Assembly (NCBI RefSeq): GCF_014077005.1
Contig: NZ_JACGVC010000035.1
Coordinates: 1 to 64,000 of the forward strand
Direction of reading: 5' to 3'
Source: Colwellia sp. MB3u-45
GTDB lineage: Bacteria > Pseudomonadota > Gammaproteobacteria > Enterobacterales > Alteromonadaceae
DNA length: 64,000 nucleotides
Shown: one piece after another, positions 2,731 to 19,024 of the stretch
Position numbering within the stretch: the stretch's first letter is position 1
How the letters are laid out: each line of letters starts with the position of its first letter
Notes under the pieces: generated by a model
Database searches by the model: none
What the model saw: the letters and a program-made list of their open reading frames with translations, nothing else
Told to the model about the DNA's origin: nothing
Made by a program: the position numbers and the translations under genes

Positions 2731-4986
2731 ATGAATGCTCAGCCCCACAACATTGCAGCAAATAAGCAAAACACCAATCAACCAGTAGCAAACCAAGAAA
2801 TCGACTTAATGGCGCTATTTGGCGCATTAATTGATCGCAAATATTTTATTATTGCTGTTACCACGTTATTTATGCTGGTAGGTATAATGATCGCGGTGTT
2901 TTCACCCCCGGTATACCAAGCCACCTCAATGATCCAAGTTGAAGAAACAGGCGGTTCGGTACCTGGCCTTGACGATATGGCCGGTATGTTCGAAAGCACC
3001 TCGGCAGCCATCACAGAAATCGAATTGTTAAAATCACGTTCGGTCATTGGCGAGGCAGTCGACAGCTTAAAGTTAGACATAGTGGCAGAGCCAAAATTAT
3101 TCCCCTTTATCGGCGGTCGTGCATTTCGTAAATTTAACCCAACCCAAGCCAATGCATTAGCAGCGCCAAGCTTTGGCGCAAGTAGCTATGCGTGGGGCGG
3201 TGAAAAAATTAGCGTATTTAGGTTTGACGTACCCAATTACGCTATTGGCAGTGAATACATCCTAGTGGCGTTAGCCAATAATCAGCTAGCACTGCAAAAC
3301 CCCAATGGCGAAACGGTACTAACTGGGCAAGTAGGGCAAGAGCTCAGTAATGGCATTATTCATTTAACCGTGCGTGAGCTTAACGCGCGCGCAGGCACAG
3401 AGTTTACCCTTATGCGCCGCAACCGCCTAAATACAGTGTTAGACCTACAAGCAGCAATAGGTGCCAACGAAAAAGGTAAAGACTCAGGCATCATAAATTT
3501 AAGCTTACAAAGCGCTGATGCCAACTATGCCGAAAAAGTGCTCAATAAAGTAGCGGCTATCTACGTGCAACGTAATGTAAAGCGCAACAGCGCCGAAGCG
3601 CAAAAGTCACTTGAGTTTTTAGAAGTACAACTGCCAGAAATTAAACAGCAATTAGAATCCGCTGAAGCGCGCTTTAACGACTACCAAATAAAACGCCAGT
3701 CAATCAATATAACCTTAGAAACCCAAGGCGTGCTTGAGCAAGTAGTAAAGCTTGAAACCCAATTACAAGAGCTAGAATTAAAGCGCTTAGAAATGAGCCG
3801 TAAATTTAAAAAAAATCACCCTACCTATCAAGGCTTACTTGAGCAAGTAGCCACCGTAAAACAGCAACGCAATACACTCGTGGCCGAAGTGGGTAAATTA
3901 CCCAAAACTCAGCAAGAGCTATTACGCTTAAAGCGCGATATAGAAGTCAGTAACCAAATATACATGTTACTGCTCGGTAAAACCCAAGAGCTAGACATAG
4001 TGCGCGCCGGCACCGTAGGTAATGTGCGGGTAATCGACTTTGCCGAGGTTAACCGCTCAAAACCGGTTAAGCCTAAAAAAGCCCTTATTGTGGTAATGGC
4101 AACACTGTTAGGCGGCATGTTAGCGGTGGCTATTGTATTAGTGCAAAAAGCTATGCATAAAGGCGTTGAAGACCCAGCAGAGATCGAAGCCATTGGCCTA
4201 CCTGTATATGCCAGTGTGCCGTACTCAGACTATCAAGATAAGCTTTCTGGCTTCTCCAAACTAAGTAAAGTAAGCAAAACAGGGAAGGCAGCTAAAGCCA
4301 ATAAAGCAAAATCAATACTGGCACTCGATAACCCAGCCGACTTATCAATAGAGGCACTGCGTAGTTTACGCACCAGTTTACACTTTGCGATGATGGAAGC
4401 TAAAAATAACGTTATTGCTATATCAGGCCCAAGCCCAGGCGTTGGTAAATCGTTTATATCGGTAAACCTAGCCGCCGTACTGGCGCAAAGTGATAAAAAA
4501 GTGTTAATAGTTGATGCGGATATGCGCAAAGGCTACCTGCAAACTCAGTTTGGTTTAAAGTCGAAAAATGGCTTAAGTGATTACTTATCAGGCCGATTAA
4601 CCTTAGCGGAAGTAACTGATGCAACCCCAGTAGCCGGGCTAAGTGTAGTTACGCGCGGGCAAATACCGCCTAATCCGTCAGAGCTACTTATGCATAGCAA
4701 CTTTAGTCAATTTGTTACCGAGGTAAGCGCACTGTACGACTTAGTTATTATAGATACACCCCCTATTTTAGCAGTAACCGACCCAGCAATTGTTAGCGCA
4801 CATGCAGGCACTACCTTACTGGTAACCCGCTTTGGCCAAAATCATTTACGCGAAATAGAGTTAACCCGTAACCGCTTTGAACAAAACGGCATTGACGTAA
4901 AAGGCGTGGTATTTAACGGCGTAGTTAAAAAAGCCAGTAATGCCTATGGGTATTATGGTTATGCTTACGAAAGTGATAAAAAATAG
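2731..4986 (+). CDS. wzc: Polysaccharide co-polymerase and BY-kinase Wzc
   Basis: This inner-membrane chain-length regulator and tyrosine autokinase works with Wza in export. The ATG at 2731, behind AAGGA at 2716-2720, gives 751 residues; an upstream TTG inside wzb is less likely. An N-terminal Wzz domain with its first membrane segment near residues 35-60 is followed by a long periplasmic coiled-coil and GNVR region and a second membrane segment near 450-475. The cytoplasmic kinase has Walker A (SGPSPGVGKS, ~565-574), Walker A' (VLIVDADMRKG, ~591) and Walker B (LVIIDTPP, ~671). The tail has only five tyrosines (AYGYYGYAYE). A ~25-residue Ser/Lys-rich linker precedes the kinase domain. Confidence 0.92.
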   Translation: MNAQPHNIAANKQNTNQPVANQEIDLMALFGALIDRKYFIIAVTTLFMLVGIMIAVFSPPVYQATSMIQVEETGGSVPGLDDMAGMFESTSAAITEIELLKSRSVIGEAVDSLKLDIVAEPKLFPFIGGRAFRKFNPTQANALAAPSFGASSYAWGGEKISVFRFDVPNYAIGSEYILVALANNQLALQNPNGETVLTGQVGQELSNGIIHLTVRELNARAGTEFTLMRRNRLNTVLDLQAAIGANEKGKDSGIINLSLQSADANYAEKVLNKVAAIYVQRNVKRNSAEAQKSLEFLEVQLPEIKQQLESAEARFNDYQIKRQSINITLETQGVLEQVVKLETQLQELELKRLEMSRKFKKNHPTYQGLLEQVATVKQQRNTLVAEVGKLPKTQQELLRLKRDIEVSNQIYMLLLGKTQELDIVRAGTVGNVRVIDFAEVNRSKPVKPKKALIVVMATLLGGMLAVAIVLVQKAMHKGVEDPAEIEAIGLPVYASVPYSDYQDKLSGFSKLSKVSKTGKAAKANKAKSILALDNPADLSIEALRSLRTSLHFAMMEAKNNVIAISGPSPGVGKSFISVNLAAVLAQSDKKVLIVDADMRKGYLQTQFGLKSKNGLSDYLSGRLTLAEVTDATPVAGLSVVTRGQIPPNPSELLMHSNFSQFVTEVSALYDLVIIDTPPILAVTDPAIVSAHAGTTLLVTRFGQNHLREIELTRNRFEQNGIDVKGVVFNGVVKKASNAYGYYGYAYESDKK

Positions 4987-5376: not shown

Positions 5377-6657
5377 ATGCACGATTCATTAACAGACCTA
5401 AAAATTGGCATTATAGGTTTAGGTTATGTGGGCCTGCCATTAGCAGTTGAGTTCGGTAAAAAATTCCCGGTATTAGGCTTTGATATTAACCAAGGCCGAA
5501 TTGCACAACTACAATCAGGCCACGACTCTACACTTGAAGTGAGTGATGAAGAGCTTAAAGAGTCTCCAAACTTAAATTACTCTTTTACAGCATCAGACCT
5601 TGAAAGCTGTAACGTATATATTGTTACCGTACCCACCCCGATTGATGATCATAAACAACCTGATTTAACACCCCTTATTAAAGCCAGCGAAATGCTAGGT
5701 AAAGTGGTTAAAAAAGGCGATATTATTATTTATGAGTCAACCGTATATCCAGGTGCGACAGAAGAAACTTGTTTACCAGAAGTTGAAAGAGTTTCAGGGT
5801 TAATCTTTAATAAAGACTTTTTTGCGGGATACTCTCCAGAGCGAATCAACCCAGGCGATAAAGAACACCGTGTTACTAATATTTTAAAAGTAACCAGTGG
5901 ATCAACCCCTGACATTGCTGAAGTAGTAGACCAACTATATAAGTCAGTAATTACCGCAGGTACACATAAAGCATCAAGTATAAAAGTGGCTGAAGCGGCA
6001 AAAGTGATTGAAAATACTCAGCGCGATGTCAACATTGCATTAATCAATGAACTGTCAATTATATTTAACAAATTAGACATCGATACATTAGAAGTATTAG
6101 AAGCCGCAGGCACTAAATGGAACTTCCTACCATTTCGACCAGGTTTGGTCGGTGGGCATTGTATTGGTGTTGATCCATACTACTTAACACATAAAGCGCA
6201 AAGCGTTGGTTACCACCCAGAAATGATTTTAGCCGGTCGCCGACTTAACGATGGTATGGCCAAACATGTGGTATCTGAACTAGTTAAAAAGATGCTTAAA
6301 AAACGCATTCAAGTTGATGGTGCTAATGTATTACTAATGGGCTTAACGTTTAAAGAAAATTGCCCCGATTTACGCAATACTAAAGTGGTCGATATTGTTA
6401 GTGAACTTAAAGAATACAATATTAACGTAGATATTGTAGACCCTTGGTGCTCAAACGAACAAGCACAACATGAATATGGTTTGTCCTTAACTCAATTAGA
6501 TAAAGAAAACTACTATGATGGGATAATTATAGCGGTTGGTCATAATGAGTTTAAAGAGCTAGGCGCGGAAAGTATTCGTGCATTAGGGAAAAAATCTCAC
6601 GTTATATATGACTTGAAATATATCCTTGATAAAGAGTCTGTTGATTTGCGCTTGTAA
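5377..6657 (+). CDS. tviB: UDP-N-acetyl-hexosamine 6-dehydrogenase, TviB/WbpO type
   Basis: The enzyme oxidises the C6 hydroxyl of a UDP-N-acetylhexosamine to a carboxylate with two NAD+. It is 426 aa, like Vi-antigen TviB and WbpO, and has the Rossmann motif GLGYVGLP near residues 14-21. Also visible are VPTPI, ESTVYPG, the E-N-x-Q-R-D-x-N-I-A helix and the catalytic cysteine in [11 protein letters not shown] (about residue 261). With wbpB, wbpD, wbpE and wbpI in the locus it most likely makes UDP-GlcNAcA, the entry to UDP-ManNAc(3NAc)A. It resembles TviB more than Pseudomonas WbpA, so UDP-GalNAc as substrate cannot be excluded. It is the first gene after the hairpin. Confidence 0.88.
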
Positions 6658-6714: not shown

Positions 6715-7671
6715 ATGAAAAATTTTGCAATGATAGGTGCGGCAGGTTATATAGCACCACGTCACATGAAAGCTATTAAAGAAACAGGCAATAATCTTGT
6801 CGCGGCATTAGATAAAAATGATTCAGTAGGCATTATAGATAGTTACTTTCCAGAAGCTGACTTTTTTACAGAGTATGAGCGATTTGATCGTCATATTGAT
6901 TTATTAAAAAGAAAGGGTACTCAAATTGACTACTTAGCAATAGCTTCACCAAACTATCTTCATGACTCACATATTCGTTTTGCCTTACGTCATGATGCCC
7001 ATGCAATTTGTGAAAAACCTTTGGTATTAAATCCGCACAACATTGATGCTTTACAAATCGTACAAGAAGAAACAGGTAAGCAAGTTTACAATATTCTTCA
7101 ACTTAGATTACATCAAAGCATTATTGACCTTAAAGCTTATGTTGCAGATGAAATTGCTAAAAATCCTAACAAAGTTTTTGATGTTGACTTAACTTATTTA
7201 ACAAGCCGTGGGCATTGGTACTTCACATCATGGAAAGGCGATGATAATAAATCTGGTGGTATCGCAACTAACATAGGTGTTCATTTTTATGACATGCTAG
7301 GTTGGGTTTTTGGTGATTTAGTTAAAAATGAAGCGCACTTAAAACAAGAAGATGCTAACGCTGGCTATTTAGAATTTAAACACGCTAAAGTCCGTTGGTT
7401 CTTGTCGGTAAATTATACTTATATTCCTGCTGATGTTAAAGCTGCAGGACAACGTACTTATCGTTCGATTACGGTTGATGGTAATGAAATTGAATTTTCA
7501 GGTGGTTTTACTGACCTTCATACCAAAAGCTATGACCATATCTTAACAGGTGGTGGCTTCGGTTTAGAAGAGGCACGTAAGAGCATTGAGATTGTTAGCT
7601 CAATTCGCAAGCAAGATATTGTGGTTAACCATTCTGATGTTCATCCGTTTGTATCAAAAGTGATTGGCTAA
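6715..7671 (+). CDS. wbpB: UDP-GlcNAcA 3-oxidase, WbpB/WlbA-like (Gfo/Idh/MocA)
   Basis: This NAD-dependent enzyme oxidises C3 of UDP-GlcNAcA to the 3-keto sugar that WbpE then aminates. It has 318 residues, an N-terminal Rossmann start ([11 protein letters not shown]) and the family motif CEKPLVLN with its catalytic Lys near residue 101. A Gfo/Idh C-terminal domain follows ([27 protein letters not shown]). AAATAGGAAG precedes the ATG. The stop overlaps the wbpD start by one base (TAATG). The sequence is very close in style to WlbA and WbpB, and the following genes confirm the pathway. Confidence 0.87.
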
Positions 7672-8252
7672 TGACTAGTTACCATAAACACGAAAGCGCT
7701 ATCGTAGATGATGGTGCTCAAATTGGATTAGATACTCATGTTTGGCATTTTGTACATGTTTGTAGTGGCGCAAAAATCGGTGCAGGCTGTTCACTCGGTC
7801 AAAATGTCTTTATCGGTAATAAAGTGACAATTGGCAATAACGTTAAGATTCAGAATAATGTGTCGGTTTACGACAACGTTCATCTTGAAGATGATGTTTT
7901 TTGTGGACCGAGCATGGTGTTCACTAATGTGTATAATCCACGTTCGTTCATCGAGCGAAAAACAGAATATCGTGACACGTTAGTTAAACGTGGCGTTACT
8001 CTTGGAGCAAACTGTACAATAGTCTGTGGTGTTACCCTAGGTGAATACGCATTAATTGGTGCAGGAGCTGTTATCAATAAAGATGTCAAACCGTTTGCGC
8101 TGTTGGTTGGCGTTCCGGGCAAACAAATTGGCTGGATAAGTAAATATGGCGAGCAACTTGATTTGCCTATTATTGGCTCGGCTGAAGCTACCTGTGAACA
8201 CACGGGTGATAAATATCAACTTAATGACGGCGACTTAATACTCGTTTCATAA
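7671..8252 (+). CDS. wbpD: UDP-3-amino-sugar uronate N-acetyltransferase WbpD
   Basis: This left-handed beta-helix acetyltransferase N-acetylates the 3-amino group of UDP-GlcNAc(3NH2)A using acetyl-CoA. The 193-aa protein shows regular hexapeptide turns ([20 protein letters not shown]) from about residue 15 to 155 and the GVPGKQIGW end typical of this family. It overlaps wbpB by one base and wbpE follows 19 nt later. Pseudomonas and Bordetella orthologues (WbpD, WlbB) have about the same length. Confidence 0.88.
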
Positions 8253-8271
8253 CTTCTTTAAAGTGAACACA

Positions 8272-9372
8272 ATGCAATTCATCGATTTAGCAGCGCAATA
8301 TAGGCACTTGCAGACAAAAATAGACGCTAGAATAAAAACAGTTTTGGAGCATGGTAAATATATCATGGGTCCTGAAGTTCAAGAGTTAGAAGAAAGACTG
8401 TCTGATTATGTTGGTGTTAAGCATACCGTAAGTTGTGCTAATGGTACTGATGCGTTAACTTTAGCCTTAATGGTGTTAGGCGTAAAAGAAGGTGATGCAG
8501 TTTTTTGTCCGACGTTTACTTTTTTTGCAACAGCTGAAGCCATTGCCTTTGAAAAAGCGACACCTGTATTTGTTGACTCAAATGAAGCTACATTTAATAT
8601 TTGCCCACAAGATTTAGAAAAGCAAATCAAAAAAGTTATTGCTGAAGGAGAGTTCACACCCAAAGCAATTATTGCGGTAGATTTATTTGGTTTGCCTGCA
8701 GATTACCCTGCAATACAAGCAATAGCTGATAGATATGACTTGAAAGTTATTGAAGACGCAGCACAAGGTTTCGGTGGTTCAATCACTAATGAGAACGGCA
8801 ACGAACAAAAAGCGGGAGGCTTTGGTGATATCGCGACTACAAGCTTTTTCCCAGCGAAACCATTAGGCTGTTATGGTGATGGCGGTGCTGTTTTTACTAA
8901 TAATGATGAATATGCAGAGTTATTAAAATCATACCGTGTACATGGTAAAGGACAAGATAAATACGATAACGTGCGAATAGGAATGAACAGTCGCTTAGAT
9001 ACCATTCAAGCAGCAATCTTATTAGAAAAACTAGCGGAGTTCCCAATAGAGCTAATTAAACGCAATAAGGCTGCAGCTAACTACGAAAAAGAATTAGCCG
9101 CTACCTATAAAACACCACAAGTACCAGCAGGATTCCTAAGTTCATGGGCGCAATATACCCTAGTAGATGAAAACCGTGATGCGGTGATGGCAAAATATAA
9201 AGAACAAGGTATGCCAACTGTTGTTTATTATGGTACCTGTATGCACCAGCAAACAGCATTTAAAGAGTTAGGTTACCAGAAAGGTGATTTTCCTATTGCT
9301 GAAAAGTTAGCAAAACAGGTGGTTAGTTTACCAATGCACCCTTATTTAAAATTACTAAGCTTAACTAAATAG
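8272..9372 (+). CDS. wbpE: PLP-dependent UDP-sugar 3-aminotransferase WbpE
   Basis: A DegT/DnrJ/EryC1 aminotransferase that transfers an amino group from glutamate to the 3-keto sugar made by WbpB. From the ATG at 8272 it has 366 residues; a GTG at 8263 would add three. The start MQFIDLAAQYRHL and the PLP-lysine region FFPAKPLGCYGDGG (Lys near 196) match WbpE and WlbC closely. SCANGTDALTLAL and EDAAQGFGG are further family blocks. It completes the dehydrogenase, oxidase, acetyltransferase and aminotransferase set; the 2-epimerase lies about 6 kb downstream. Confidence 0.88.
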   Translation: MQFIDLAAQYRHLQTKIDARIKTVLEHGKYIMGPEVQELEERLSDYVGVKHTVSCANGTDALTLALMVLGVKEGDAVFCPTFTFFATAEAIAFEKATPVFVDSNEATFNICPQDLEKQIKKVIAEGEFTPKAIIAVDLFGLPADYPAIQAIADRYDLKVIEDAAQGFGGSITNENGNEQKAGGFGDIATTSFFPAKPLGCYGDGGAVFTNNDEYAELLKSYRVHGKGQDKYDNVRIGMNSRLDTIQAAILLEKLAEFPIELIKRNKAAANYEKELAATYKTPQVPAGFLSSWAQYTLVDENRDAVMAKYKEQGMPTVVYYGTCMHQQTAFKELGYQKGDFPIAEKLAKQVVSLPMHPYLKLLSLTK

Positions 9373-9374
9373 CA

Positions 9375-10697
9375 ATGAGCAAGCTTAATAAAAATAATTT
9401 TAATAAAAATGTATTAACTTTAATTACAGGATCTGTGATAGCTCAAGGGCTTCCCATTGCTTTAAGCCCAATTCTAACTCGTATTTATACTCCGGATGAC
9501 TTCGGTGTTATTGCTTTGTACATGGCGATAACCATGATTTTTTCATCAATAGCAACAGGCCGATATGAACTTGCTATTATGTTGCCAAAAAAAGATTCTG
9601 ATGCCCTTACTTTATTAATTATATCGGCTTTGATTTCTTTTTTTATAAGCTTATTATCATTATTAATAGTATTTATATTTAATCATGAGATAACTGTTTT
9701 TTTGGGCGTTCTAGAGCTTTCTCACTGGCTGTATTTTATACCCTTAAGTATTTTCTTATCGGGAATATATCAGGCAAGCATTTGTTGGTGCAGTAGAAAT
9801 AAAGAGTTTAAGGACATTTCACAAAATAAGATTTTACAAAGTGGTAGCCTTGTTTCGGTTCAATTAATTTTTTCTAAACTGGGTTCTGCAGGGTTAGTCA
9901 TAGGCTACATTATCTCTCAAGTAATATCGGTATTTATGTTGGTGAAGGTAATGTACAGTAAAAAAAAATCATCAAATACTAATAAAAAAATTAAAATGTA
10001 TGCATTGGCTAAGCGCTATAAAAATTTTCCATTAGTTAATACATGGTCAGCCCTTTTAAATATAGCTTCTCTACAAGTTCCAGTGCTAATGTTAACCACT
10101 TTGTTCAATGCATCTACAACTGGTTTTTTTTCATTGTCGCAAAGAATTATACAAATGCCTATGTCCTTGATAGGTGTCTCTATAGGTCAGGTTTATTACC
10201 AAAGAGCTTCAAAAATAAAAAATGATAAAATAAAACTTAAGAAACTAACACTTGATTTGCATAATAAATTACTCTTGATAGGTATATTTCCTACATTAAT
10301 AATATTATCATTCGGTGATGACCTTTTCGCTATAGTTTTCGGTGAAACCTGGAGGGTAGCAGGTGAATATGCCCAGTTGCTAAGTATATGGGTTTATTTT
10401 GTTTTTGTTAGCTCGCCATTGTCACATTTAATGACAATATATGAGAAGCATAAAGAGTCTGTGATTTTTAATGCTTTTCTTTTTGTTTCAAGAATTAGTA
10501 GCTTATTACTTGGTTGGTTGTTATTCAATGATCCTCATGTTGCTATAGGCTTATATGCTCTAGTGGGTACATTAGTATGGAGCTCTTTTGTATTTTATCT
10601 TATGAAAATTGCTGGTGTTAGTTATGCCGAAACAGCCAATCAATTATATAAATACCTAGCTGTAATTGCAGCTGCGGCATTACTAAATTTAATTTGA
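9375..10697 (+). CDS. wzx: Polysaccharide repeat-unit flippase Wzx
   Basis: This is a MOP-superfamily flippase that moves undecaprenyl-diphosphate-linked repeat units to the periplasmic face. It has 440 residues with about a dozen hydrophobic segments. The N-terminus is of family type (LTLITGSVIAQGLPIALSPI, then LTRIYTPDDFGVIALY). It starts 3 nt after the wbpE stop. From here to about 21 kb the DNA is visibly more AT-rich than the flanks, with many A/T homopolymers and AT-ending codons, which fits an exchangeable serotype-specific segment. Confidence 0.9.
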   Translation: MSKLNKNNFNKNVLTLITGSVIAQGLPIALSPILTRIYTPDDFGVIALYMAITMIFSSIATGRYELAIMLPKKDSDALTLLIISALISFFISLLSLLIVFIFNHEITVFLGVLELSHWLYFIPLSIFLSGIYQASICWCSRNKEFKDISQNKILQSGSLVSVQLIFSKLGSAGLVIGYIISQVISVFMLVKVMYSKKKSSNTNKKIKMYALAKRYKNFPLVNTWSALLNIASLQVPVLMLTTLFNASTTGFFSLSQRIIQMPMSLIGVSIGQVYYQRASKIKNDKIKLKKLTLDLHNKLLLIGIFPTLIILSFGDDLFAIVFGETWRVAGEYAQLLSIWVYFVFVSSPLSHLMTIYEKHKESVIFNAFLFVSRISSLLLGWLLFNDPHVAIGLYALVGTLVWSSFVFYLMKIAGVSYAETANQLYKYLAVIAAAALLNLI

Positions 10698-10702
10698 GTC
10701 TT

Positions 10703-12220
10703 ATGGAATATAAAATAGCGTTACGAAATAATAAGGGAGGGGAGTGGACGGTTCATGACAATGTATCTGTTAAGGGCTACGCTTTTGATGATTTAGGTGG
10801 TTATTTTAATCTTGATAGGCTTGCGATTTTATTTGAAAACTGCTCGGATTTAGAACAGTTTAAGAAGCTTATTCATAGACTCAACGGATCTTTTTCTGTA
10901 GTTATAAAGACTAAGTTAGGAGTCTTGCTAGCGTCAGATATAACAAGAACTTTCCCTCTATTTTATACAAAACAAAATAATGCTTGGATTGTTAGTGATG
11001 ATGCTAACTTTTTACAAGCAAAGTATTCTTTGAGAATATCCTCTGAGAAACGAGAATTATTTCAATGTACTGGTTATGTTACTGGTTGTAATACTCTCCT
11101 TGATTCTTTATATCAAGTACAAGCTGCTGAAGTTGTATTACTCAATAATGAGGTAGAATGTTATGAATATTGGACCTATGCAACCTCGAAAATAGTTAAT
11201 AAACCTTTCTATAAGTTACAGAATTCGCTTTTGAATATTCTTGATGATGTAACTAAGAGGTTAGTAGAAAGTGTTGATGGAAGAACAGTGGTTATCCCTC
11301 TAAGTGGGGGATATGACTCAAGACTGATAGTAAGCCTTTTAAAAAAACATAAATATAATAGTGTAATTTGTTTTACATATGGGTCTAAAACAAGCTTTGA
11401 AAAAAAGATAGCTAGAAAAGTTGCCAGAAAACATAATGTTAAATTGATTGAAATTGATTATACGCCAGAATTTATTGATGAGAATCTAGATATAGCTGAA
11501 TATATTGATTACATTAAATATGCATCAAACTATACATCCTTACCTCATATCCAAGACTTTCTCTCTGTGAAATATTTAGTTAAAAATGGTTTAGTTCCTA
11601 CTGGCTCGATTTTTGTTCCGGGACACTCAGGGGATTTGTTTGCAGGAACTCATATTGCCTGTGAGAAAACAGCGACTAATAATCTAGATGCAGTCCAAGA
11701 AGCTATCAAAAGAAAACACTATTGCTTATCTGATACTACTGATCTAGAGATTACAATTGATTACTGTAATCCTGATTTTTTTTCGTATTCAAATACAGAA
11801 GCTTGGAGCTGGAAAGAAAGGCAAGCTAAATTTATAGTTAATTCATTAAAAGTTTACGAGTTTTTTGGGATGGAAGCTAGATTGCCATTATGGGATAAAG
11901 AACTAGCTGAATTTTTCAAAGAAATACCATTGGAATATAAGAACCACTCTCAGCATAATAAATATAATTTTTCAACTAATTTGTATGAAAACACCTTGTT
12001 CGAAATTTTTTATATCTATGGAGTTGGTTATAAAAAAACAAGTAACTTATTGGTATTACGCAAAGTACTCGATCGTTTTATTGGAATATTTAGTAATCAA
12101 GTTGATAGATTGAATAATTTTGATTATTTAATCTATCAACTTAATAGACACTTAAATATAGTAACAAAAGGGGATATAAACTCAGACCTAATAAAGATTG
12201 TTTTGTCGATACTAAAATAA
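10703..12220 (+). CDS. Asparagine-synthase-like amide ligase lacking the glutaminase Cys
   Basis: This belongs to the AsnB superfamily, which adenylates a carboxylate and forms an amide. From the ATG at 10703 (505 aa) the N-terminal Ntn-like part keeps the fold pattern (LNGSFSVVI, LLASDITRTFPLFY) but begins MEYKI. It therefore lacks the Cys2 nucleophile that glutamine-hydrolysing enzymes need. The synthetase domain has the PP-loop motif PLSGGYDSRL near residues 199-208 and the late family block EARLPLWDKELAEFF. Cys-less AsnB relatives such as beta-lactam synthetase use an amine rather than glutamine. A uronic-acid pathway sits beside it, so amidation of a sugar carboxylate is the favoured role. 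The gene starts 5 nt after wzx. Confidence 0.8.
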   Translation: MEYKIALRNNKGGEWTVHDNVSVKGYAFDDLGGYFNLDRLAILFENCSDLEQFKKLIHRLNGSFSVVIKTKLGVLLASDITRTFPLFYTKQNNAWIVSDDANFLQAKYSLRISSEKRELFQCTGYVTGCNTLLDSLYQVQAAEVVLLNNEVECYEYWTYATSKIVNKPFYKLQNSLLNILDDVTKRLVESVDGRTVVIPLSGGYDSRLIVSLLKKHKYNSVICFTYGSKTSFEKKIARKVARKHNVKLIEIDYTPEFIDENLDIAEYIDYIKYASNYTSLPHIQDFLSVKYLVKNGLVPTGSIFVPGHSGDLFAGTHIACEKTATNNLDAVQEAIKRKHYCLSDTTDLEITIDYCNPDFFSYSNTEAWSWKERQAKFIVNSLKVYEFFGMEARLPLWDKELAEFFKEIPLEYKNHSQHNKYNFSTNLYENTLFEIFYIYGVGYKKTSNLLVLRKVLDRFIGIFSNQVDRLNNFDYLIYQLNRHLNIVTKGDINSDLIKIVLSILK

Positions 12221-12267
12221 AATTATCAGAATATCTCTGATTTAAACTTGAGAGTTAAAAATATAAT

Positions 12268-13251
12268 ATGGATCAAAATACAATCACAAACACTTCTAAA
12301 TTAAAGGTTGTTGTAATTACTCAAGACTTATCAAAGATATTAAAACCTTTACATGATTTAAATCATAATATAATTGGAGTGATTGAATCCGCACCAAGAA
12401 ATTATAATAAAAATATACTATTACGCTTCTATATTAATTTTATTAGATCTAATAAATGGATCAATAGAAATTATAAAAAAAGTATAGAAGGTTTCTGCGT
12501 TAGGAAAAAAATACCATATAGATTCATGACTGATGGTGGCGATGTCAATATTGAAGCTTGGCTTAAAACTTTAAATACTGACATTATTATTGTTTTCGGA
12601 ATGTCACAGTTACTAAAAAGTAATGTTTTTTCTAGTCCAAAATTTGGGAGTATCAATTTACACCCTTCATTTCTTCCTGATTATAGGGGCCCTAACCCTG
12701 ACTTTTGGCAATATATGAATTTAGAGATGAATCCCGGAGTAACTATTCACTTCATTGATAAAGGAGAGGATACAGGGGATATCATCTTGCAAGAGCGAAG
12801 TATTATACATTCTGGTATGAAATCCCCTGAACGTTTACAAAAACTAGTCGGACAGTTAGGTTTGGCATTAATAATAAAAACTTTAGAAAAAATTGAAGAT
12901 GATTCAATCGTAAGAATAAAACAGCCGGAACATTCTCAAACTATGAGAGCAAGAAACTTGCACCTCGAAGAACATAATTCTCTCATAAATTGGGATGAAT
13001 GGGATGTTAAAAGTATATGGCATGTTTTGAGGGGTACAGAAAGTTGGCTTAATGCCATTAAACAACCTCGAGGTTTATTTAAAGGCCAACGATGGGTGAT
13101 CGGAAGTTATGAAAAGTGTGATATGGATGGAACAGTGCCAGGAAAAATATATCATAATAAGAAACAAAAATATGTAGCGGCAAAAAATGGTAAAATAACG
13201 CTGACAGTTTCCTTTAATATTAAAAAATTAATTTTAAGTTTGGTCAAATGA
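12268..13251 (+). CDS. Formyltransferase-family enzyme
   Basis: This 327-aa protein has a methionyl-tRNA-formyltransferase-type N-terminal domain. The catalytic signature SINLHPSFLPDYRGPNP (about residues 127-143) supplies the Asn and His, and FIDKGEDTGDII (about 161-172) supplies the Asp. The family transfers a formyl group from N10-formyltetrahydrofolate to an amine. Within a polysaccharide locus the acceptor is probably a nucleotide-linked amino sugar or an amino-acid substituent, not initiator tRNA. The length and the ~50-residue insert after the first strand differ from Fmt. It follows the AsnB-like gene by 47 nt and overlaps the next gene by 4 nt. Confidence 0.8.
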   Translation: MDQNTITNTSKLKVVVITQDLSKILKPLHDLNHNIIGVIESAPRNYNKNILLRFYINFIRSNKWINRNYKKSIEGFCVRKKIPYRFMTDGGDVNIEAWLKTLNTDIIIVFGMSQLLKSNVFSSPKFGSINLHPSFLPDYRGPNPDFWQYMNLEMNPGVTIHFIDKGEDTGDIILQERSIIHSGMKSPERLQKLVGQLGLALIIKTLEKIEDDSIVRIKQPEHSQTMRARNLHLEEHNSLINWDEWDVKSIWHVLRGTESWLNAIKQPRGLFKGQRWVIGSYEKCDMDGTVPGKIYHNKKQKYVAAKNGKITLTVSFNIKKLILSLVK

Positions 13252-14198
13252 ACAATAAAAGTAAGTACCGTGAGTTATGTAATATAGAGTCGACTATACC
13301 TTTATTTAGTCAAGATTGGTGGCTAGATGCAGTTTGTGGAGAAGATAGTTGGGATGTTTGTCTGGTTGAAAAAGGTCGGCAGATTGTCGCTACAATGCCA
13401 TATTATATTGTCAAAAGAAATTTTTTTACCTTTTCAACCCAACCTAGTATGACGCAGACATTAGGTCCTTGGCTTAAGAATTTCGATGGAAAATATAGCA
13501 AAAAGCTTGCGCAGGAAAAAGACTTAATGCAAGAGTTAATAGCTCAATTACCAAGTTTTGATTATTTTAGCCAAAATTGGAATTATCAAAATACGAATTG
13601 GTTACCTTTCTATTGGAAAGGTTATAAACAAACTACGCGTTACACGTATGTAATTGATTTGCAATGTGGACTTGAAGACATATTCAAGAGTTTTGAATCA
13701 TCAAAAAAGAAGAATATCAAAAAATCAGCAGAACTTGTAAATATTGTATATGATATTACATCCTCCGACTTTTATAATAATCATAAGCTCACCCTTTCTA
13801 AGCAAGGGGTTGATATAACTTACTCGTATGATTTGTTTAAAAAATTATATGATAGTGCCTATGAACGAAATAGTGGAAAAACTATCGCTGCTTACGACAA
13901 AGATGGTAATTTACATGCCGCATTATTTGTTGTTTGGGACGAGAACAGTGCATATGATTTAATAAGCACTATTGATCCTGAATATAGGACATATGGTGCA
14001 GCATCTCTTTTAATTAAAGAAATAATATCTTTTGTATCTGATAAAACAAAAAAATTCGATTTTGAAGGTTCTATGATAGAAAATGTTGAACGATCCTTTA
14101 GACAGTTTGGCGCAAAACAAGAAGCATATCATTCAATTAATAAATCAAATTCAAAAATAATCGATATGGCATTGTTTTTTAAATCTTTATTGGGATGA
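13248..14198 (+). CDS. FemAB/GNAT-like transferase
   Basis: A 316-aa protein resembling the GNAT/FemAB-like Acetyltransf_6 group found in polysaccharide loci. An N-terminal half carries FSQDWWLDAVCG and an aromatic-rich middle (FSQNWNYQNTNWLPFYW). The second half has the KKKNIKKS patch and a GNAT-like core AALFVVWDENSAYDLIS, ending in FDFEGSMIENVERSFRQFG, a block typical of this group. Members acylate or aminoacylate sugars or peptides; the donor here cannot be told. It overlaps the formyltransferase by 4 nt (ATGA), which argues for co-translation, and the next gene begins 3 nt later. Confidence 0.7.
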   Translation: MNNKSKYRELCNIESTIPLFSQDWWLDAVCGEDSWDVCLVEKGRQIVATMPYYIVKRNFFTFSTQPSMTQTLGPWLKNFDGKYSKKLAQEKDLMQELIAQLPSFDYFSQNWNYQNTNWLPFYWKGYKQTTRYTYVIDLQCGLEDIFKSFESSKKKNIKKSAELVNIVYDITSSDFYNNHKLTLSKQGVDITYSYDLFKKLYDSAYERNSGKTIAAYDKDGNLHAALFVVWDENSAYDLISTIDPEYRTYGAASLLIKEIISFVSDKTKKFDFEGSMIENVERSFRQFGAKQEAYHSINKSNSKIIDMALFFKSLLG

Positions 14199-14201
14199 GT
14201 C

Positions 14202-15554
14202 GTGATAAAAATACATATGTCATCAATATTATTAGCAGAAAAAAATTATATTATTGATGTGATGTTTTCAGAGTTTTTTAACTTGGAATATGAAGTGATA
14301 ATTGATGATAATCATGAGTATATTTCAATAACGTTAGATAATGAAGCTAGGTTGGTCGTTTGTTGTGAATTACTAAATATTGAAGATTACCTGTCTTCTC
14401 ATCACTTACCTAAAGTGCGCTATGTAAAAAATAAATTTACACCAGAATGTGATATCCCCAATCTTTATGGAACAGGAAATGTTGAAGTATCTGATAGTGA
14501 AATTATTTGCAATATAGATATTTTTTCAAGTTGTTTTTTTATGCTTTCTAGAATGGAAGAAAAAAATTCAACGATAAAAGATAATCATAATCGCTTTCAA
14601 AGTAACAATTCGATAGCTTTTAAGTTTGGCTTTTTAGATCGGCCTATTGTAGATGAATATACCGAAATGCTGTGGAACATGCTTTCTTACCTCCAGCCCA
14701 GTTTAATTAGAAAACAACATAACTTTAAAAAATTTATTACATGTGATGTAGATTGGCCTTACGATCCTGTTAGAAGATCATTGAAAAAGTCTTTAAAAAA
14801 GTTTGTAGGAGATCTACTGAAACGGAAAGATATCATGTCTGCAGTCACAACATTGAAACTATATTTATATCATCAACTTGGTTTGAAACAAGGCGATATT
14901 TATAGAAGTTCAATTGATTGGATGATGGATGTGAATGAAAAAGTAGGAAATAAAATATCTTTTTATTTTATTTCCTTCGCAACAACCGAACTTGACTCAA
15001 CTTTTGATCTAACGTCTAGTGACATGATTGAACTACTACAAAGTATTAGTGCTAGGGGGCATGAGATTGGTTTACACCCTGGGTATAACACCTTTCAGCA
15101 TGAGAAAAACTTCAAAAAGAGTGTCGAGACTTTAAAGCATGCAATGGATATAGCTGGCATCAATCAGCAAAGTATAGGTGGCAGAATGCATTACTTAAGG
15201 TGGGATGCGTCTATAACAGCCAGTTTATGGGCTAAGAATGGGCTAGCATACGACTCAACATTAAGCTTTGCAGATTTAAGTGGTTTTAGGTGTGGGACTT
15301 GCCGCGAGTTTTCAATGTTTGATTTAAATGAAAAAAGTCACCTGCAACTTAAACAAAGGCCATTAATTAACATGGAGTGTACTGTAATTAGCCCCATGTA
15401 TGAAGGGCTAGGATATTCTAATCAAGCTATGGAAAGGTTCAAGTACTTTATACGAAAAACATCACAATACAATGGGAACTACACCTTACTTTGGCATAAT
15501 AGTCATTTTTCAAACGCCAAAGACAAACAATTTTATAAAGAGCTAATTAAATGA
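14202..15554 (+). CDS. Polysaccharide-deacetylase-like protein
   Basis: A 450-aa protein with a ~170-residue N-terminal region without recognisable motifs. A NodB-like domain follows, with TCDVDWP near residue 180 (the catalytic and metal Asp pair) and HEIGLHPG near 286 (metal histidines). RMHYLRWD follows near 330 and a late LLWHNSHF, both typical of this family. It would remove an N- or O-acetyl group from a sugar. It has no signal peptide, so it should act in the cytoplasm on lipid- or nucleotide-linked sugar. GTG at 14202 follows GGGATGA closely; ATG at 14217 is an alternative. It overlaps wbpI by 4 nt. Confidence 0.75.
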   Translation: MIKIHMSSILLAEKNYIIDVMFSEFFNLEYEVIIDDNHEYISITLDNEARLVVCCELLNIEDYLSSHHLPKVRYVKNKFTPECDIPNLYGTGNVEVSDSEIICNIDIFSSCFFMLSRMEEKNSTIKDNHNRFQSNNSIAFKFGFLDRPIVDEYTEMLWNMLSYLQPSLIRKQHNFKKFITCDVDWPYDPVRRSLKKSLKKFVGDLLKRKDIMSAVTTLKLYLYHQLGLKQGDIYRSSIDWMMDVNEKVGNKISFYFISFATTELDSTFDLTSSDMIELLQSISARGHEIGLHPGYNTFQHEKNFKKSVETLKHAMDIAGINQQSIGGRMHYLRWDASITASLWAKNGLAYDSTLSFADLSGFRCGTCREFSMFDLNEKSHLQLKQRPLINMECTVISPMYEGLGYSNQAMERFKYFIRKTSQYNGNYTLLWHNSHFSNAKDKQFYKELIK

Positions 15555-16645
15555 AAATATTAACTATTTTAGGTGCAAGACCACAATTTATAAAAGCAGG
15601 CACAGTTAGTCGTGCAATAGCCGAACGTATTGCTATTGAAGGTGAGATAATTAAAGAAGTAATTGTACATACTGGTCAGCATTATGATGAAAATATGAGT
15701 GATGTATTTTTTGATGAATTAAAAATACCAAAACCAGATTATAAATTAGACGCAGGTGGCAAAAGTCATGGTGCGATGACTGCTAGTATGATTGAAAAGC
15801 TAGAGTTAATTATGTTAGTTGAAAAACCAGACTGGGTAATGGTTTATGGTGATACTAACTCTACTTTAGCTGGTGCAATTGCTGCCTCTAAGCTACATAT
15901 AAAAATTGCCCATGTTGAGGCTGGTTTGAGAAGCTTTAATATGAGAATGCCAGAGGAAATTAATAGAATCCTCACAGACAGAGTTAGCAATATCTTATTT
16001 TGCCCTACGCTCGGAGCTGTCGATAATCTAAATAAAGAAGGGGTGGTTAATTGGGGTAATAATACGAAAGTTGTTCTTTCTGGTGACGTAATGCAGGATG
16101 GAGCTAACTTTTATAGACAATTTTCGGTAAAACCTGAGTTAATAGAAATAGATAGTGACTTTATTTTATGTACTATCCACCGAGCTGAAAATACAGATTC
16201 ATTAGAACGAATGGATGGTATTTTTTCTGCTTTGAGAGAAATTTCAAAAACTAAACAGGTGATTATGCCTCTTCACCCAAGAACCAAAAAGGTTTTAGAT
16301 TCTAATGATGTAGATACTGCAGGTATCACTTTTACTGAGCCTGTAGGATATTTAAAAATGGTGTGGTTAATTGAGAATTCTGATTTAGTTATAACTGATA
16401 GCGGAGGATTACAAAAAGAAGCATACTTTTTTGATAAGCCCTGTATTACTCTCCGAGATGAAACTGAATGGGTAGAGTTGGTCGATTCAGGTGCCAACAA
16501 GCTAGTAGGTACTGACTGTACAAAAATCATTAACGCTTTTAACTTTTTTAACGGGTATAGTTTTGAAGGTGACAACAATTTGTATGGGCAAGGCAATACT
16601 AGTAAAATAATTATTGATGAAATGTTAGGTACTTTAAATGTATGA
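15551..16645 (+). CDS. wbpI: UDP-GlcNAc(3NAc)A 2-epimerase, WbpI-like
   Basis: A non-hydrolysing 2-epimerase of the WecB family, 364 aa. Seen in sequence are the start ILTILGARPQFIKAG, VMVYGDTNSTLAGA, HVEAGLRSF near residue 121 and the UDP-binding ITDSGGLQKEAYF. WecB itself would convert UDP-GlcNAc to UDP-ManNAc. Here wbpB, wbpD and wbpE are present, and the assignment to WbpI (UDP-GlcNAc(3NAc)A to UDP-ManNAc(3NAc)A) follows from that context. It overlaps the deacetylase gene by 4 nt and the next glycosyltransferase by 8 nt. Confidence 0.85.
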   Translation: MKILTILGARPQFIKAGTVSRAIAERIAIEGEIIKEVIVHTGQHYDENMSDVFFDELKIPKPDYKLDAGGKSHGAMTASMIEKLELIMLVEKPDWVMVYGDTNSTLAGAIAASKLHIKIAHVEAGLRSFNMRMPEEINRILTDRVSNILFCPTLGAVDNLNKEGVVNWGNNTKVVLSGDVMQDGANFYRQFSVKPELIEIDSDFILCTIHRAENTDSLERMDGIFSALREISKTKQVIMPLHPRTKKVLDSNDVDTAGITFTEPVGYLKMVWLIENSDLVITDSGGLQKEAYFFDKPCITLRDETEWVELVDSGANKLVGTDCTKIINAFNFFNGYSFEGDNNLYGQGNTSKIIIDEMLGTLNV

Positions 16646-17705
16646 ATCACTTTCATATTTTGCTTTATTAAATATAGAGAAATCACCTGGTGTAGATCAG
16701 AAAATTGATAATTTAGTGAAAGCTGCAATAGATATAGACATAAATGCACAAAAAAAAATATTTCCTGTTTCTCTAATTGGAATATTCAACTTTATTCGAA
16801 GTATAGTATCTTGTCGCTCTGAAATTATTTATATTCGCTTCTCGGACTTTTTATTTCCTTTTATTTTTTTATTTCTTTGTTACTTAAGAGTAAAAGGGAA
16901 GAAAGTGATCGTAGATGTACCCACTCCTCGAATTATTTGCATAAAAGAAATGGAAGTTAATATAAAAAAACCATTTTTCAAACTATTAAGGAAGACGTTA
17001 TCCTATATTTCTTCTAGTTGGGTTTTATTTCCTTCAAATTTAATCATTCAATATGCGGATGAGCACCTATGGTTCTCTTATGGTACTAGGAAAAAGACCC
17101 TAAAAATGGGGAATGGTATTTTAATAGATAATAATATACCTTTGGCCAATAAGGAAGGAGTTCAAAATTCTATAAATATGATTGCTGTAGCACAACTAGC
17201 TGACTGGCATGGTTACGACAGATTAATTCAAGCTATGGCGATAGTAAGTGGAACTAGTAGTATTAATTATAACCTTACAGTTGTTGGGGAAGGTGAGTCA
17301 CTTTATAAGCTAAAAGAATTAACTAATAGCTTAAAACTAAAAAATATTATTTTTACAGGCCGTTTAGTAGGTGATGATTTAAATAATGCTTTTGAAAATA
17401 AACACGTAGGCATCGCTAGTTTGGGGCTATATAGAATAGGATTACATGAGGCCTCGGTGCTAAAAACACGCGAATATATGGCTAGAGGTCTGCCTGTAAT
17501 AACAGCTGGAAATGATCCTGACTTTCCTAGCGATTGTGGATTTCGCTTTAGTGTAAGTAATTCTTCAGAAATAGATTCTTTAGTTTGTTGCCTGAAAAGC
17601 TTACCGCTAAAATTAAGAGATTTATCACAAAGTGATATTCGGAGTTATGCAAAGGTAAACCTTTCAATTGAGTCTAAACTAAAAGTCATTCTCGAGGCGC
17701 TGTAG
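16638..17705 (+). CDS. GT4-family glycosyltransferase
   Basis: A 355-aa GT-B glycosyltransferase. The second domain has the GT4 pattern AQLADWHGYDRLIQAM, then VVGEGES, IIFTGRL and the donor-site block SVLKTREYMARGLPVITAG with the conserved glutamate. The N-terminal half is hydrophobic around residues 68-85 and probably touches the membrane. It is expected to add one sugar to the lipid-linked repeat unit; donor and acceptor cannot be read from sequence. It follows wbpI, so transfer of ManNAc(3NAc)A is one possibility. It overlaps the next gene by one base. Confidence 0.83.
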   Translation: MYESLSYFALLNIEKSPGVDQKIDNLVKAAIDIDINAQKKIFPVSLIGIFNFIRSIVSCRSEIIYIRFSDFLFPFIFLFLCYLRVKGKKVIVDVPTPRIICIKEMEVNIKKPFFKLLRKTLSYISSSWVLFPSNLIIQYADEHLWFSYGTRKKTLKMGNGILIDNNIPLANKEGVQNSINMIAVAQLADWHGYDRLIQAMAIVSGTSSINYNLTVVGEGESLYKLKELTNSLKLKNIIFTGRLVGDDLNNAFENKHVGIASLGLYRIGLHEASVLKTREYMARGLPVITAGNDPDFPSDCGFRFSVSNSSEIDSLVCCLKSLPLKLRDLSQSDIRSYAKVNLSIESKLKVILEAL

Positions 17706-19024
17706 TGAATATAGGCTTATTTTCATTAACGTTAATTACTTTTATTTTAATAATTCATTACTTTGGAAAAAAGTCAATTGTTTCATTAAATTTTAATTTT
17801 TGGTCATTACTTTTTTATAAAGAAATGTTCTTTATCATACCTTCTATATTTTTTATATCAATTTATGGAGTTGAAAGCTTTAGAACATTCGTCCTAGCTA
17901 AGCCTGAAATGGAAAATATTACGTCTTGGGTTGTTCTTTACTGTGTAATGTCATTTATTACTTGTATGATATTTTTTAGTTTCATTGGTATCACAAATAC
18001 AAGATTTGTAGCTGAACCTTCAAGTTTCACTTTGAATGATCGTAGAGATATAGTCATTTTTGGGTCTTCTGCTATGTTTACTGCGGTGACTTTATTATTA
18101 ATTGCCATTCTTTTTCTTAATTATAAACATGCGTTCATTTATACCATTTTTTCAAGTGATAATTTAATTAAAGTGAGGCTTGAAAATACATACTATTCTA
18201 TGTTGCCATCACAGGCATCTTATTTAATATCAATATCAACGTTTATTTCTACTATTTTTTCCGTGTATTTATTTAAAATAAACAATAAAAAATTAGGCTA
18301 TATCACACTCATTATTTCTCTATTCTTAGCCACATCGGAGGGGTCTAAAGGAGACATAATGAATTTAGCTGTTGTTACATTTGTGGCCTATTTTTATTTT
18401 TTCAAGCCAAAGGTTAATCTGCTCAAGTTATTAGTCGTATTTGTTTTTTTTATTTCCTTATCTTCCGTATTACTTTTTCATGTTGTATCTTTACAAGTGC
18501 CTGATTTAAGTGTTGAACGATTCTTCTTATATTTAGTTGAGAGGATTGGTGTTGATCAAATGGCAGGTACATATGAAACCTTTTCAGCTGAACTATACTC
18601 TCCTAAATATGCTTGGCATGCAGTACCTTTTTCACACTTTTTTGTTGATTACAATATCTTTTCAAAAGATCTTATGTTGTTATCTGAAGGTGGTACACAC
18701 ACATCTGTTGGGGTTAAGAATAGTTTGTTTATATCTGAAGCCTTCGGAATGGGAAGTTGGGAATTAGCTATAGTTTCACCGTTTATTTTTTCTTTTGGAT
18801 ATGTCATCAAACTGTTGATAATTTATTCCACCTTGACAATACTTTTCTCAAAATCCGTATCACAGACTTTTACACTTCCATTGTTGTTTACAACAACTAA
18901 GTTAACTGGTGATTTTTCATCCGTTGTACTTCAAAAAGGTACTATTTTATTATTGGTTGTTTTCGTTGTTATTTATCTGGTTAGTTTATTGCTTAATTTT
19001 TTTATAAAAAATTATAGCTCTTAG
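17705..19024 (+). CDS. wzy: Polysaccharide polymerase candidate Wzy
   Basis: A 439-aa integral membrane protein with roughly ten or more hydrophobic segments. It has an extended, less hydrophobic loop near residues 275-340 (ERIGVDQMAGTYETFSAEL onward), as expected for the large periplasmic loop of Wzy. Sequence identity among Wzy proteins is low, so the call rests on topology and context: it is the only unassigned multi-spanning protein in a locus that has wzx and wzc. It starts with GTG at 17705, overlapping the previous stop by one base. Confidence 0.75.
   Translation: MNIGLFSLTLITFILIIHYFGKKSIVSLNFNFWSLLFYKEMFFIIPSIFFISIYGVESFRTFVLAKPEMENITSWVVLYCVMSFITCMIFFSFIGITNTRFVAEPSSFTLNDRRDIVIFGSSAMFTAVTLLLIAILFLNYKHAFIYTIFSSDNLIKVRLENTYYSMLPSQASYLISISTFISTIFSVYLFKINNKKLGYITLIISLFLATSEGSKGDIMNLAVVTFVAYFYFFKPKVNLLKLLVVFVFFISLSSVLLFHVVSLQVPDLSVERFFLYLVERIGVDQMAGTYETFSAELYSPKYAWHAVPFSHFFVDYNIFSKDLMLLSEGGTHTSVGVKNSLFISEAFGMGSWELAIVSPFIFSFGYVIKLLIIYSTLTILFSKSVSQTFTLPLLFTTTKLTGDFSSVVLQKGTILLLVVFVVIYLVSLLLNFFIKNYSS

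Follow-up and report, generated by a model that had tools for sequence, protein, structure and literature searches.

A Formyltransferase Beside Wbp/Vim-like Genes in a Colwellia Polysaccharide Locus: A Proposed Route to an N-Formyl-Aminoacyl Diaminouronamide

Introduction

What does a run of four tailoring genes do in a surface-polysaccharide locus of Colwellia sp. MB3u-45? The genes in question lie in a stretch of 64,000 nucleotides (contig NZ_JACGVC010000035.1, positions 1 to 64,000 of the forward strand; "the window" hereafter means this whole stretch) and encode, in this order: (i) an AsnB-like ligase; (ii) a formyltransferase of the 10-formyl-tetrahydrofolate (10-formyl-THF) type; (iii) a transferase with a predicted FemAB/FemX fold; and (iv) a VimE-like deacetylase. 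For brevity, they are called here asnB, fmt, femAB and vimE. The setting of this cassette is a Wzx-type surface-polysaccharide locus, in which the genes for WbpA, WbpB, WbpD and WbpE are all present upstream of the cassette in one gene run. An initial annotation had proposed that the ligase joins the carboxylate of a uronic acid to an amine or amino acid, and that the other three enzymes modify that group or a nearby amino sugar.

In the scheme preferred here, WbpA, WbpB, WbpE and WbpD would produce UDP-GlcNAc3NAcA, from which the VimE-like protein would strip one N-acetyl group (that at C-2, by analogy with Porphyromonas gingivalis). FemAB would load the freed sugar amine with an amino acid taken from an aminoacyl-tRNA, the formyltransferase would then block the alpha-amine of the loaded amino acid with a formyl group, and the AsnB-like ligase would convert the uronic carboxylate to an amide; WbpI could invert C-2. 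The resulting N-formyl-aminoacyl diaminouronamide would be built into the Wzx-exported surface polysaccharide. To this whole scheme, i.e., a Wbp/Vim-like route plus a cap gene, a rough probability of 0.6 is given. Its product is probably an N-formyl-aminoacyl diaminouronic acid, probably amidated as well, with the amino acid most likely on a sugar nitrogen rather than on the carboxylate. Gene content, protein families, catalytic motifs, predicted folds, conserved gene order and the exchange of a formyl- for an acetyltransferase gene between two similar loci are shown by the data; all reactions and their sequence, and likewise the ring position, the amidation and the kind of amino acid, are inferred.

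The formyltransferase is the new element relative to the known Wbp/Vim pathway. In P. gingivalis, WbpA/B/E/D are reported to make a di-N-acetyl uronic acid, from which VimE is proposed to strip the C-2 acetyl group; VimA decides whether serine or glycine is added, as shown by gene swap, and the AsnB-like WbpS makes the uronamide, as shown by deletion (PMC7468200). According to the same source, VimE, VimA and WbpS account for the 2-N-seryl-3-N-acetylglucuronamide of that bacterium, a linking sugar to which cargo protein is amide-bonded. As the window carries wbpA/B/D/E, a VimE relative and a predicted FemX fold, its locus matches this pathway.

Deacetylase, Putative Aminoacyltransferase and Formyltransferase

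The sole NCBIfam match of the deacetylase is VimE (UDP-2,3-diacetamido-glucuronate deacetylase), with an E-value of 1.2e-47 over residues 84-448. By sequence, the protein is best described as a VimE relative, not an equivalog. Residues D182-V183-D184, H287, H292, R328 and W431-H432-N433 are invariant in 8/8 aligned sequences; D182, D184, H287 and H292, the candidate metal and base residues of a NodB/CE4-like enzyme, are kept, and the WbmS-like deacetylase profile of Pfam is matched with 28.2 bits (cut-off 27). VimE relatives are rare: at E 1e-10, they were found in 4/394 genomes of the order and in 6/369 of the class, with the own genome in both counts.

As regards the transferase, both its Pfam score (FemAB, 32.9 bits against a cut-off of 24) and its predicted fold place it in the FemABX family. 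The structural model, built from a 30-row alignment, has a predicted local distance difference test score (pLDDT) of 94.8, and its closest folds are FemX (Z 25.6; root-mean-square deviation 3.5, 293 residues aligned), Sba18/Sbb17 (23.8) and FemA (23.4), while the remaining GNAT-fold proteins, including the aminoacyl-tRNA-dependent MprF, start at Z 17.2. Among solved proteins, a lipid II:glycine glycyltransferase is the closest in sequence (E 0.00087). The modelled fold is, hence, that of the aminoacyl-tRNA-dependent FemX enzymes. Its likeness to VimA rests on this predicted fold and on its position beside VimE: in Dorea sp. D27 (L108), a femAB homologue adjoins a VimE which does exceed the equivalog cut-off (450.8 vs. 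440) and, in consequence, the window FemAB family appears to occupy the VimA slot. The proposed reaction has a precedent as well, since Orf11, a FemX relative of the BD-12 pathway, uses Gly-tRNA to attach glycine to an amino sugar intermediate (PMC12945691). Orf11, Sba18 and Sbb17, aminoacyl-tRNA-dependent enzymes of streptothricin-type antibiotics, have the FemX fold predicted for the window protein; they differ from it in that their product is an antibiotic small molecule, and their identity to it is about 14%.

The catalytic triad of 10-formyl-THF formyltransferases is Asn-His-Asp, and the corresponding residues N130, H132 and D168 are invariant in 10/10 aligned formyltransferases, window included. 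When the formyltransferase profile was compared with solved proteins, Met-tRNA formyltransferase was nearest (99 bits), followed by 10-formyl-THF dehydrogenase (92), ArnA (78), the GDP-perosamine-type enzyme (74), PseJ (70), the gramicidin formylation domain (67) and WlaRD (51). Among these, the acceptor is an aminoacyl amine in the case of Met-tRNA formyltransferase and the gramicidin domain, and a sugar in that of ArnA, the perosamine enzyme, PseJ and WlaRD. This ranking modestly favours an aminoacyl acceptor. Seven curated NCBIfam sub-families (Fmt, ArnA, dTDP-sugar and others) were matched by the protein, none above its cut-off (the best was Fmt, with 95.5 vs. 201.5).

The AsnB-like Ligase

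The window AsnB contains the PLSGGYDSRL motif and lacks Cys2, as had been noted before. Its ATP-pyrophosphatase SGGxDS loop is complete (S204-G205-G206 and D208-S209-R210 are invariant in 7/7) and, more generally, both SGGxDSR and ERQxK are invariant in 7/7 sequences. On the glutaminase side, the nucleophile Cys2 of class II amidotransferases is absent and GATase_7 stays below its cut-off, being matched only from profile position 65/123. The gene starts at TTG 10694; the start first given to it, at 10703, corresponds to an ATG of the same frame, three codons further on. Upstream of the TTG the frame is open for only 14 codons (522 vs. 508 aa), and therefore a concealed Cys-bearing N-terminus does not fit.

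This divergent subfamily also occurs in other femAB loci (L035, L044, L054, L056, L071, L092 and L109), and Cys2 is missing from all six members with a clear start, the window counted (the start is unclear in L035 and cut off in L056). In other related loci a position at or near that of asnB is taken by a Cys2 AsnB (L046, L069), by an AsnB with Ser2 (L068), which nevertheless scores above the AsnB cut-off (350 vs. 267 bits), or by a Cys2 AsnB fused to a formyltransferase (L080). The L046 protein scores 415 bits against TIGR01536 and belongs to a subfamily different from that of the window. As to eps_aminotran_1 (TIGR03108), the window ligase scores 43.6 against a cut-off of 816.9, which is a strict one, as the Cys2 AsnB of L046 also remains below it, at 320.

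The structural model of the ligase is of middling confidence (pLDDT 73.5; 7-row alignment). Its nearest folds are beta-lactam synthetase (Z 22.5), TsnB9 (22.2), AsnB (21.6) and carbapenam synthetase (21.1); since these four span 1.4 Z, the fold does not choose among them. The reaction preferred here is the formation of a simple uronamide from free or separately supplied ammonia.

An AsnB-only scan of a contig collection of 84,980 species yielded 33 pattern matches and no relatives, and a search of 369 genomes of the class at E 1e-15 recovered nothing but the protein itself. Among 98 near relatives, the top non-self match (L022) had 31% identity (E 4.9e-38), and within 20 kb around it the window fmt, femAB and vimE were unmatched, so that L022 represents a ligase of this type without the rest of the cassette. 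Separately, in L019 (12304-14095), whose cassette is near-identical to that of Vibrio anguillarum, the asnB gene lies in two frames (484 and 136 aa); uronamide formation may have been lost there.

Conservation of the Neighbourhood and the Slot Upstream of femAB

The FemAB alignment was also scanned against the collection of 84,980 species, and the best 80 of 358 relatives were kept, so that all counts below are biased to close relatives; their records named Proteobacteria, Firmicutes, Bacteroidetes and Cyanobacteria, among others. Tables of 80 rows comprise the window and 79 loci, as L040 was dropped because its femAB open reading frame (ORF) failed the position rule. Within the flanking DNA covered, a VimE relative is found in 62/80 rows, and directly downstream of femAB in 50/80; it is absent in 18/80, several on short contigs. 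Where either flank extends for 9 kb or more (n = 53 rows, window included), at least one of wbpA/B/D/E is present in 38 and at least two in 32. On this count, the relatives lie in Wbp-type loci, in agreement with the initial annotation.

Formyltransferase matches above 150 bits numbered 15 in the window and 80 loci (in a first neighbourhood table, "fmt" scores below 150 bits on other proteins were ignored). Thirteen of these 15 genes are directly upstream of femAB, and a VimE relative follows in all 13 cases; in L041 the formyltransferase gene, with two femAB ORFs flanking it, is reduced to a 135-aa piece, scored as directly upstream, and in L033 it is longer and has a weak GNAT match. In another of the 13, from a Thiotrichaceae metagenome-assembled genome (L080:7195-9993), a 932-aa AsnB-formyltransferase fusion lies immediately 5' of femAB and vimE.

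The slot directly upstream of femAB holds different genes in the 80 rows: (i) a formyltransferase in 13; (ii) a sulfotransferase-like gene in 17; (iii) a methyltransferase in 4; (iv) a GNAT acetyltransferase in 4; and (v) others, or none called, in 42. Sulfotransferase-like genes, the commonest called occupant, precede femAB in L045, L053, L057, L076, L082, L098, L109 and others and may sulfate a Ser/Thr hydroxyl, an amine or a sugar; their labels derive from BLAST linkage of 19 proteins, of which 6/6 distinct ones checked against Pfam match Sulfotransfer_3. Among the GNAT labels, those of L037 and L055 come from BLAST linkage only (no Pfam GNAT match), while L047 and L101, which are GNAT by Pfam, stand among the others. 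Methyltransferases were labelled by Pfam in L052 and L095, by BLAST linkage in L096 and by likeness to L052 in size and position in L059. The formyl label is unaffected by this. The label "asn607" of the first neighbourhood table mixes WbuX-type amidotransferases with another AsnB-like group. In L062 (8961-10004), a 347-aa AMP-binding (adenylation) enzyme lies directly 5' of femAB, perhaps as another route of acyl-cap supply.

Two similar Comamonadaceae loci are of particular value. L048 (Comamonas avium) and L049 (Comamonadaceae bacterium CD01) have wzx, femAB and vimE genes that are 86, 85 and 80% identical, respectively, and between wzx and femAB the former carries a 211-aa GNAT (9338-9973) and the latter a 320-aa formyltransferase (9002-9964). 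If the acetyltransferase used the sugar nitrogen, it would reverse the VimE step; we therefore infer that its acceptor is more probably the amine of the amino acid loaded by then. Another exchange is seen between L082 and L091 (femAB 76% and vimE 58% identical), with a sulfotransferase in the slot of the former and a formyltransferase in that of the latter.

Two views of the cassette were rejected. It is not one fixed unit of four genes, since only 5/13 of the formyltransferase rows have an AsnB within the flanks covered. Nor do formyl loci have a FemAB clade of their own: a quick tree of the 80 rows, with SH-aLRT as its sole support, shows the formyl label dispersed, with 13 changes for 13 rows against a shuffled mean of 12.2.

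Likeness to Known Systems

The Wbp/Vim pathway of P. gingivalis and Tannerella forsythia (product 2-N-seryl-3-N-acetylglucuronamide, SAGA; PMC7468200, PMC13086638) has counterparts in the window as regards (i) WbpA/B/E/D; (ii) a VimE-family deacetylase; (iii) a transferase of predicted FemAB/GNAT fold; and (iv) an AsnB-like, putatively amidating enzyme. Even the position of asnB after wbpE and wzx corresponds to the order reported for P. gingivalis (PMC7468200). The window differs in its added formyltransferase, its AsnB without Cys2, its VimE relative under the equivalog cut-off and its single Wzx-type polysaccharide locus with wbpI; besides, a capped amine would be unable to bind protein. 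In other words, the cassette would work like the Wbp/Vim pathway but falls short of two strict definitions, i.e., the VimE cut-off and the eps_aminotran_1 type of AsnB. AsnB-family amidation of aminouronic acids is also described for WbpS of Pseudomonas aeruginosa and WbqG of Escherichia coli O121 (PMC7468200), which are said there to be of the eps_aminotran_1 kind, unlike the window ligase.

A more specific parallel is found in V. anguillarum DSM 21597 (L046), whose locus contains wbpB-A-D-E, an AT3-SGNH-type gene, wzx, a Cys2 AsnB, fmt, femAB and vimE and, further on, HisH, WbuX and WbpI. Identities to the window amount to 65% for wbpA, 72% for wbpD, 48% for wbpE, 55% for wbpI, 50% for fmt, 50% for femAB and 38% for vimE, and wzx and an asnB are present in both. 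The Vibrio locus differs in its Cys2 AsnB, in a distant wbpB (24%) and in its AT3-SGNH-type and HisH/WbuX-type genes, none of which turned up in the part of the window locus whose genes were scanned. This strain is listed as serotype O2 (PMC6083037), and the O2 polysaccharide is reported to carry an N-formyl-L-alanyl group, its sugars including 2-acetamido-3-amino-2,3-dideoxyglucuronamide and 2,3-diacetamido-2,3-dideoxymannuronic acid (PMC10059132, citing a 1996 nuclear magnetic resonance study; its genome strain is J360, not DSM 21597). According to a review, one uronic acid of this structure has since been reassigned, from galacto to gulo (PMC3210612). The match of fmt, femAB, vimE and asnB with formyl, alanyl and amide groups was not found drawn in the open literature searched, nor was any report linking VimA, VimE and a formyltransferase; the words "formyltransferase," "asnB" and "femA" are absent from the main text of PMC10059132.

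Alternative Readings

Several observations weigh against the preferred scheme. The VimE score of the deacetylase, 162 bits, is far under the equivalog cut-off of 440 (NF053580, 365 residues matched), the window AsnB differs from the Cys2 type found in L046, and AsnB is altogether patchy (5/13 formyltransferase rows, some with short flanks). Two formyltransferases, in L071 and L102, are not directly upstream of femAB, and the slot is more commonly occupied by a sulfotransferase-like gene (17/80). L048 and L049 differ not only in the slot but also in a wbpB-like gene (25% identity) and in two genes after vimE. Three sugar enzymes, namely ArnA, the GDP-perosamine-type enzyme and PseJ, score above the gramicidin domain (78, 74 and 70 vs. 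67 bits); the formyl-alanyl group of V. anguillarum may be at N-3; and the identity of the loaded amino acid is not readable from sequence.

According to the initial annotation, a Cys-less AsnB joins an amine or amino acid to the uronic carboxylate, with the aminoacyltransferase, formyltransferase and deacetylase steps acting there or nearby. The uniform lack of Cys2 in the six subfamily members and the distinctness of this subfamily from the Cys2 AsnB at the same position in L046 speak in its favour, as does the presence of beta-lactam and carbapenam synthetases among the nearest folds; both are Cys-less enzymes which close a ring with an internal nucleophile, not ammonia. An amine-derived amide is conceivable for the window ligase, but Cys2 enzymes stand upstream of femAB in L046, L069 and L080, the L068 AsnB is canonical except for its Ser2 (which weakens the argument from the missing Cys to amine use), the fold comparison is neutral and an amino acid is already accounted for by FemAB. 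In view of the VimE-like deacetylase, the FemX fold and the Cys2 AsnB relatives, the simplest reading is that the sugar amine bears the amino acid and the carboxylate becomes an ordinary uronamide, and joining at the carboxylate is considered unlikely as the main chemistry; the earlier proposal did hold in that the cassette would tailor a diaminouronic acid, with an amide and an amino acid both likely. Slightly less probable is that the formyltransferase acts directly on the sugar amine freed by VimE, or on another amino sugar, with FemAB working elsewhere. Surface glycans commonly contain N-formylated amino sugars, the triad is intact and the profile matches ArnA, the GDP-perosamine-type enzyme and PseJ well; on the other side, all 13 slot formyltransferases lie beside femAB and vimE, the slot acetyltransferase of the L048/L049 pair would re-acetylate the VimE product and the best profile match is Met-tRNA formyltransferase. 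This last match would equally suit an inverted order, in which the aminoacyl-tRNA is formylated and FemAB transfers the whole formyl-aminoacyl group. Such an order is rather improbable: the protein falls under the Met-tRNA formyltransferase equivalog cut-off, and the GNATs, methyl- and sulfotransferases also found in the slot are not expected to act on aminoacyl-tRNA.

The reading to which least weight is given, as very improbable, is that the cassette makes a linking sugar for the anchoring of rhombosortase or exosortase substrates, in the manner of SAGA and the cargo of the type IX secretion system in P. gingivalis. The genome does encode a rhombosortase (169.9 bits, cut-off 84) and an exosortase. 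In addition, vimA and vimE lie beside Wbp genes in rhombosortase species, as reported by Veith et al. (PMC7468200), who describe vimA adjoining vimE, with complete Wbp genes, in Pseudomonas mosselii, Aeromonas veronii and Vibrio cholerae. However, rhombosortase and exosortase are genus-wide (16/17 genomes each) while FemAB occurs in 1/17, and, as this speaks against it, such a role was set aside for the genus. As a formylated amine is, moreover, unable to form an amide bond to protein, a role in polysaccharide is favoured. The cassette does not fall within the XrtA/PEP-CTERM exopolysaccharide tailoring set either: FemAB matched no NCBIfam family at E 0.01, TIGR03019 of that set included, and the ligase scores far below the cut-off of TIGR03108.

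Implications

If the preferred scheme of amino acid loading and formyl capping is right, it offers a gene-level explanation for the N-formyl-aminoacyl groups of bacterial surface polysaccharides and ties them to the pathway which makes protein anchors in P. gingivalis. It predicts that the gene directly 5' of femAB sets the substituent of the amino acid, so that part of the polysaccharide chemistry, together with the potential for protein anchoring, would be readable from sequence in many loci. A broader and more tentative proposal, which is possible rather than probable, is that the linking-sugar pathway of P. gingivalis is a variant of a modular and widely distributed system for diaminouronic sugars bearing amino acids. 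In this system, a FemAB-VimE core would be preceded by an exchangeable cap gene (a formyl-, acetyl-, sulfo- or methyltransferase, or none); uncapped versions would leave a free amine for protein attachment, capped versions, that of the window among them, would yield plain polysaccharide, and a Cys-less AsnB may contribute another amide, formed from an amine.

Genomic Context of the Cassette

The four families lie in series, as first described, and ORFs and Pfam matches bear this out: the cassette consists of four complete ORFs (Table 1). Genes overlap by 4 nt at wzx/asnB, fmt/femAB and vimE/wbpI, with gaps of 47 nt between asnB and fmt and of 3 nt between femAB and vimE. The uronate pathway previously noticed in the locus is also there, with a WbpA-type dehydrogenase, a Gfo/Idh protein, a hexapeptide acyltransferase, a DegT aminotransferase and a WbpI-type epimerase. 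The window wbpB is 53-67% identical to that of the femAB loci L020, L049, L061, L068 and L091 (24% to L046), and its wbpD is 69-77% identical to that of L046, L049, L061, L068, L080, L091 and L112. Glycosyltransferases and an epimerase are encoded in the locus as well.

Table 1. Features of the polysaccharide locus in the window, with proposed roles and supporting matches.
Feature	Position	Strand	Match or remark
NusG-family gene	94-582		first gene of locus
wza, low-molecular-weight phosphatase, wzc	1139-4986
WbpA/TviB-type UDP-GlcNAc 6-dehydrogenase, sugar step 1	5377-6657	+	NCBIfam NF011729, 640 bits (cut-off 592)
WbpB-type Gfo/Idh 3-dehydrogenase, step 2	6715-7671	+	PF01408, 66.5 bits
WbpD-type hexapeptide N-acetyltransferase, 3-N-acetylation	7671-8252	+	PF00132
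WbpE-type DegT aminotransferase, 3-amino group	8263-9372	+	PF01041, 333 bits
Wzx-like flippase	9375-10697	+	PF13440, 91 bits
AsnB-like ligase without Cys2, divergent subfamily; proposed amidation of uronic carboxylate	10694-12220	+	PF00733 (Asn_synthase), 56.8 bits (cut-off 21); SGGYDSR; fold model
10-formyl-THF-type formyltransferase; proposed aminoacyl-amine cap	12268-13251	+	PF00551 (Formyl_trans_N), 71.5 bits (cut-off 26.1); N130/H132/D168
FemAB/FemX-fold aminoacyltransferase, VimA slot; proposed loading of amino acid on freed sugar amine	13248-14198	+	PF02388 (FemAB) above cut-off; Acetyltransf_6, 32.1 bits (cut-off 22); fold model
VimE-like polysaccharide deacetylase; proposed removal of sugar N-acetyl	14202-15554	+	NF053580, 162 bits, E 1.2e-47 (cut-off 440); DUF7033, 99.1 bits (cut-off 27)
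WbpI/WecB-type UDP-sugar 2-epimerase	15551-16645	+	TIGR00236, 312 bits (cut-off 210)
439-aa protein at the expected place of the Wzy polymerase	17705-19024		no Pfam match
Sugar-1-phosphate transferase	21104
Nucleotidyltransferase	21863
WbpM-like dehydratase	23318

The earlier statement that no exosortase is present holds for the window genes scanned, but not for the genome, in which one is encoded on another contig (C53:383447-384184; 151 bits, cut-off 25.7). In its vicinity (L118, G000:C53:374000-393900), two PrsT-type tetratricopeptide repeat genes pass their cut-off and a PEP-CTERM-like protein does not reach its own.

The NusG-family gene heading the locus suggests RfaH-like antitermination. 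A JUMPstart-like motif (GGCGGTAG, the ops core) had no match in the window, and an Rfam scan gave no matches. The G+C content is 0.31-0.32 at 10-20 kb, as compared with 0.40-0.44 before 6 kb and 0.39-0.43 at 24-36 kb, a dip which is usual in exchangeable polysaccharide loci.

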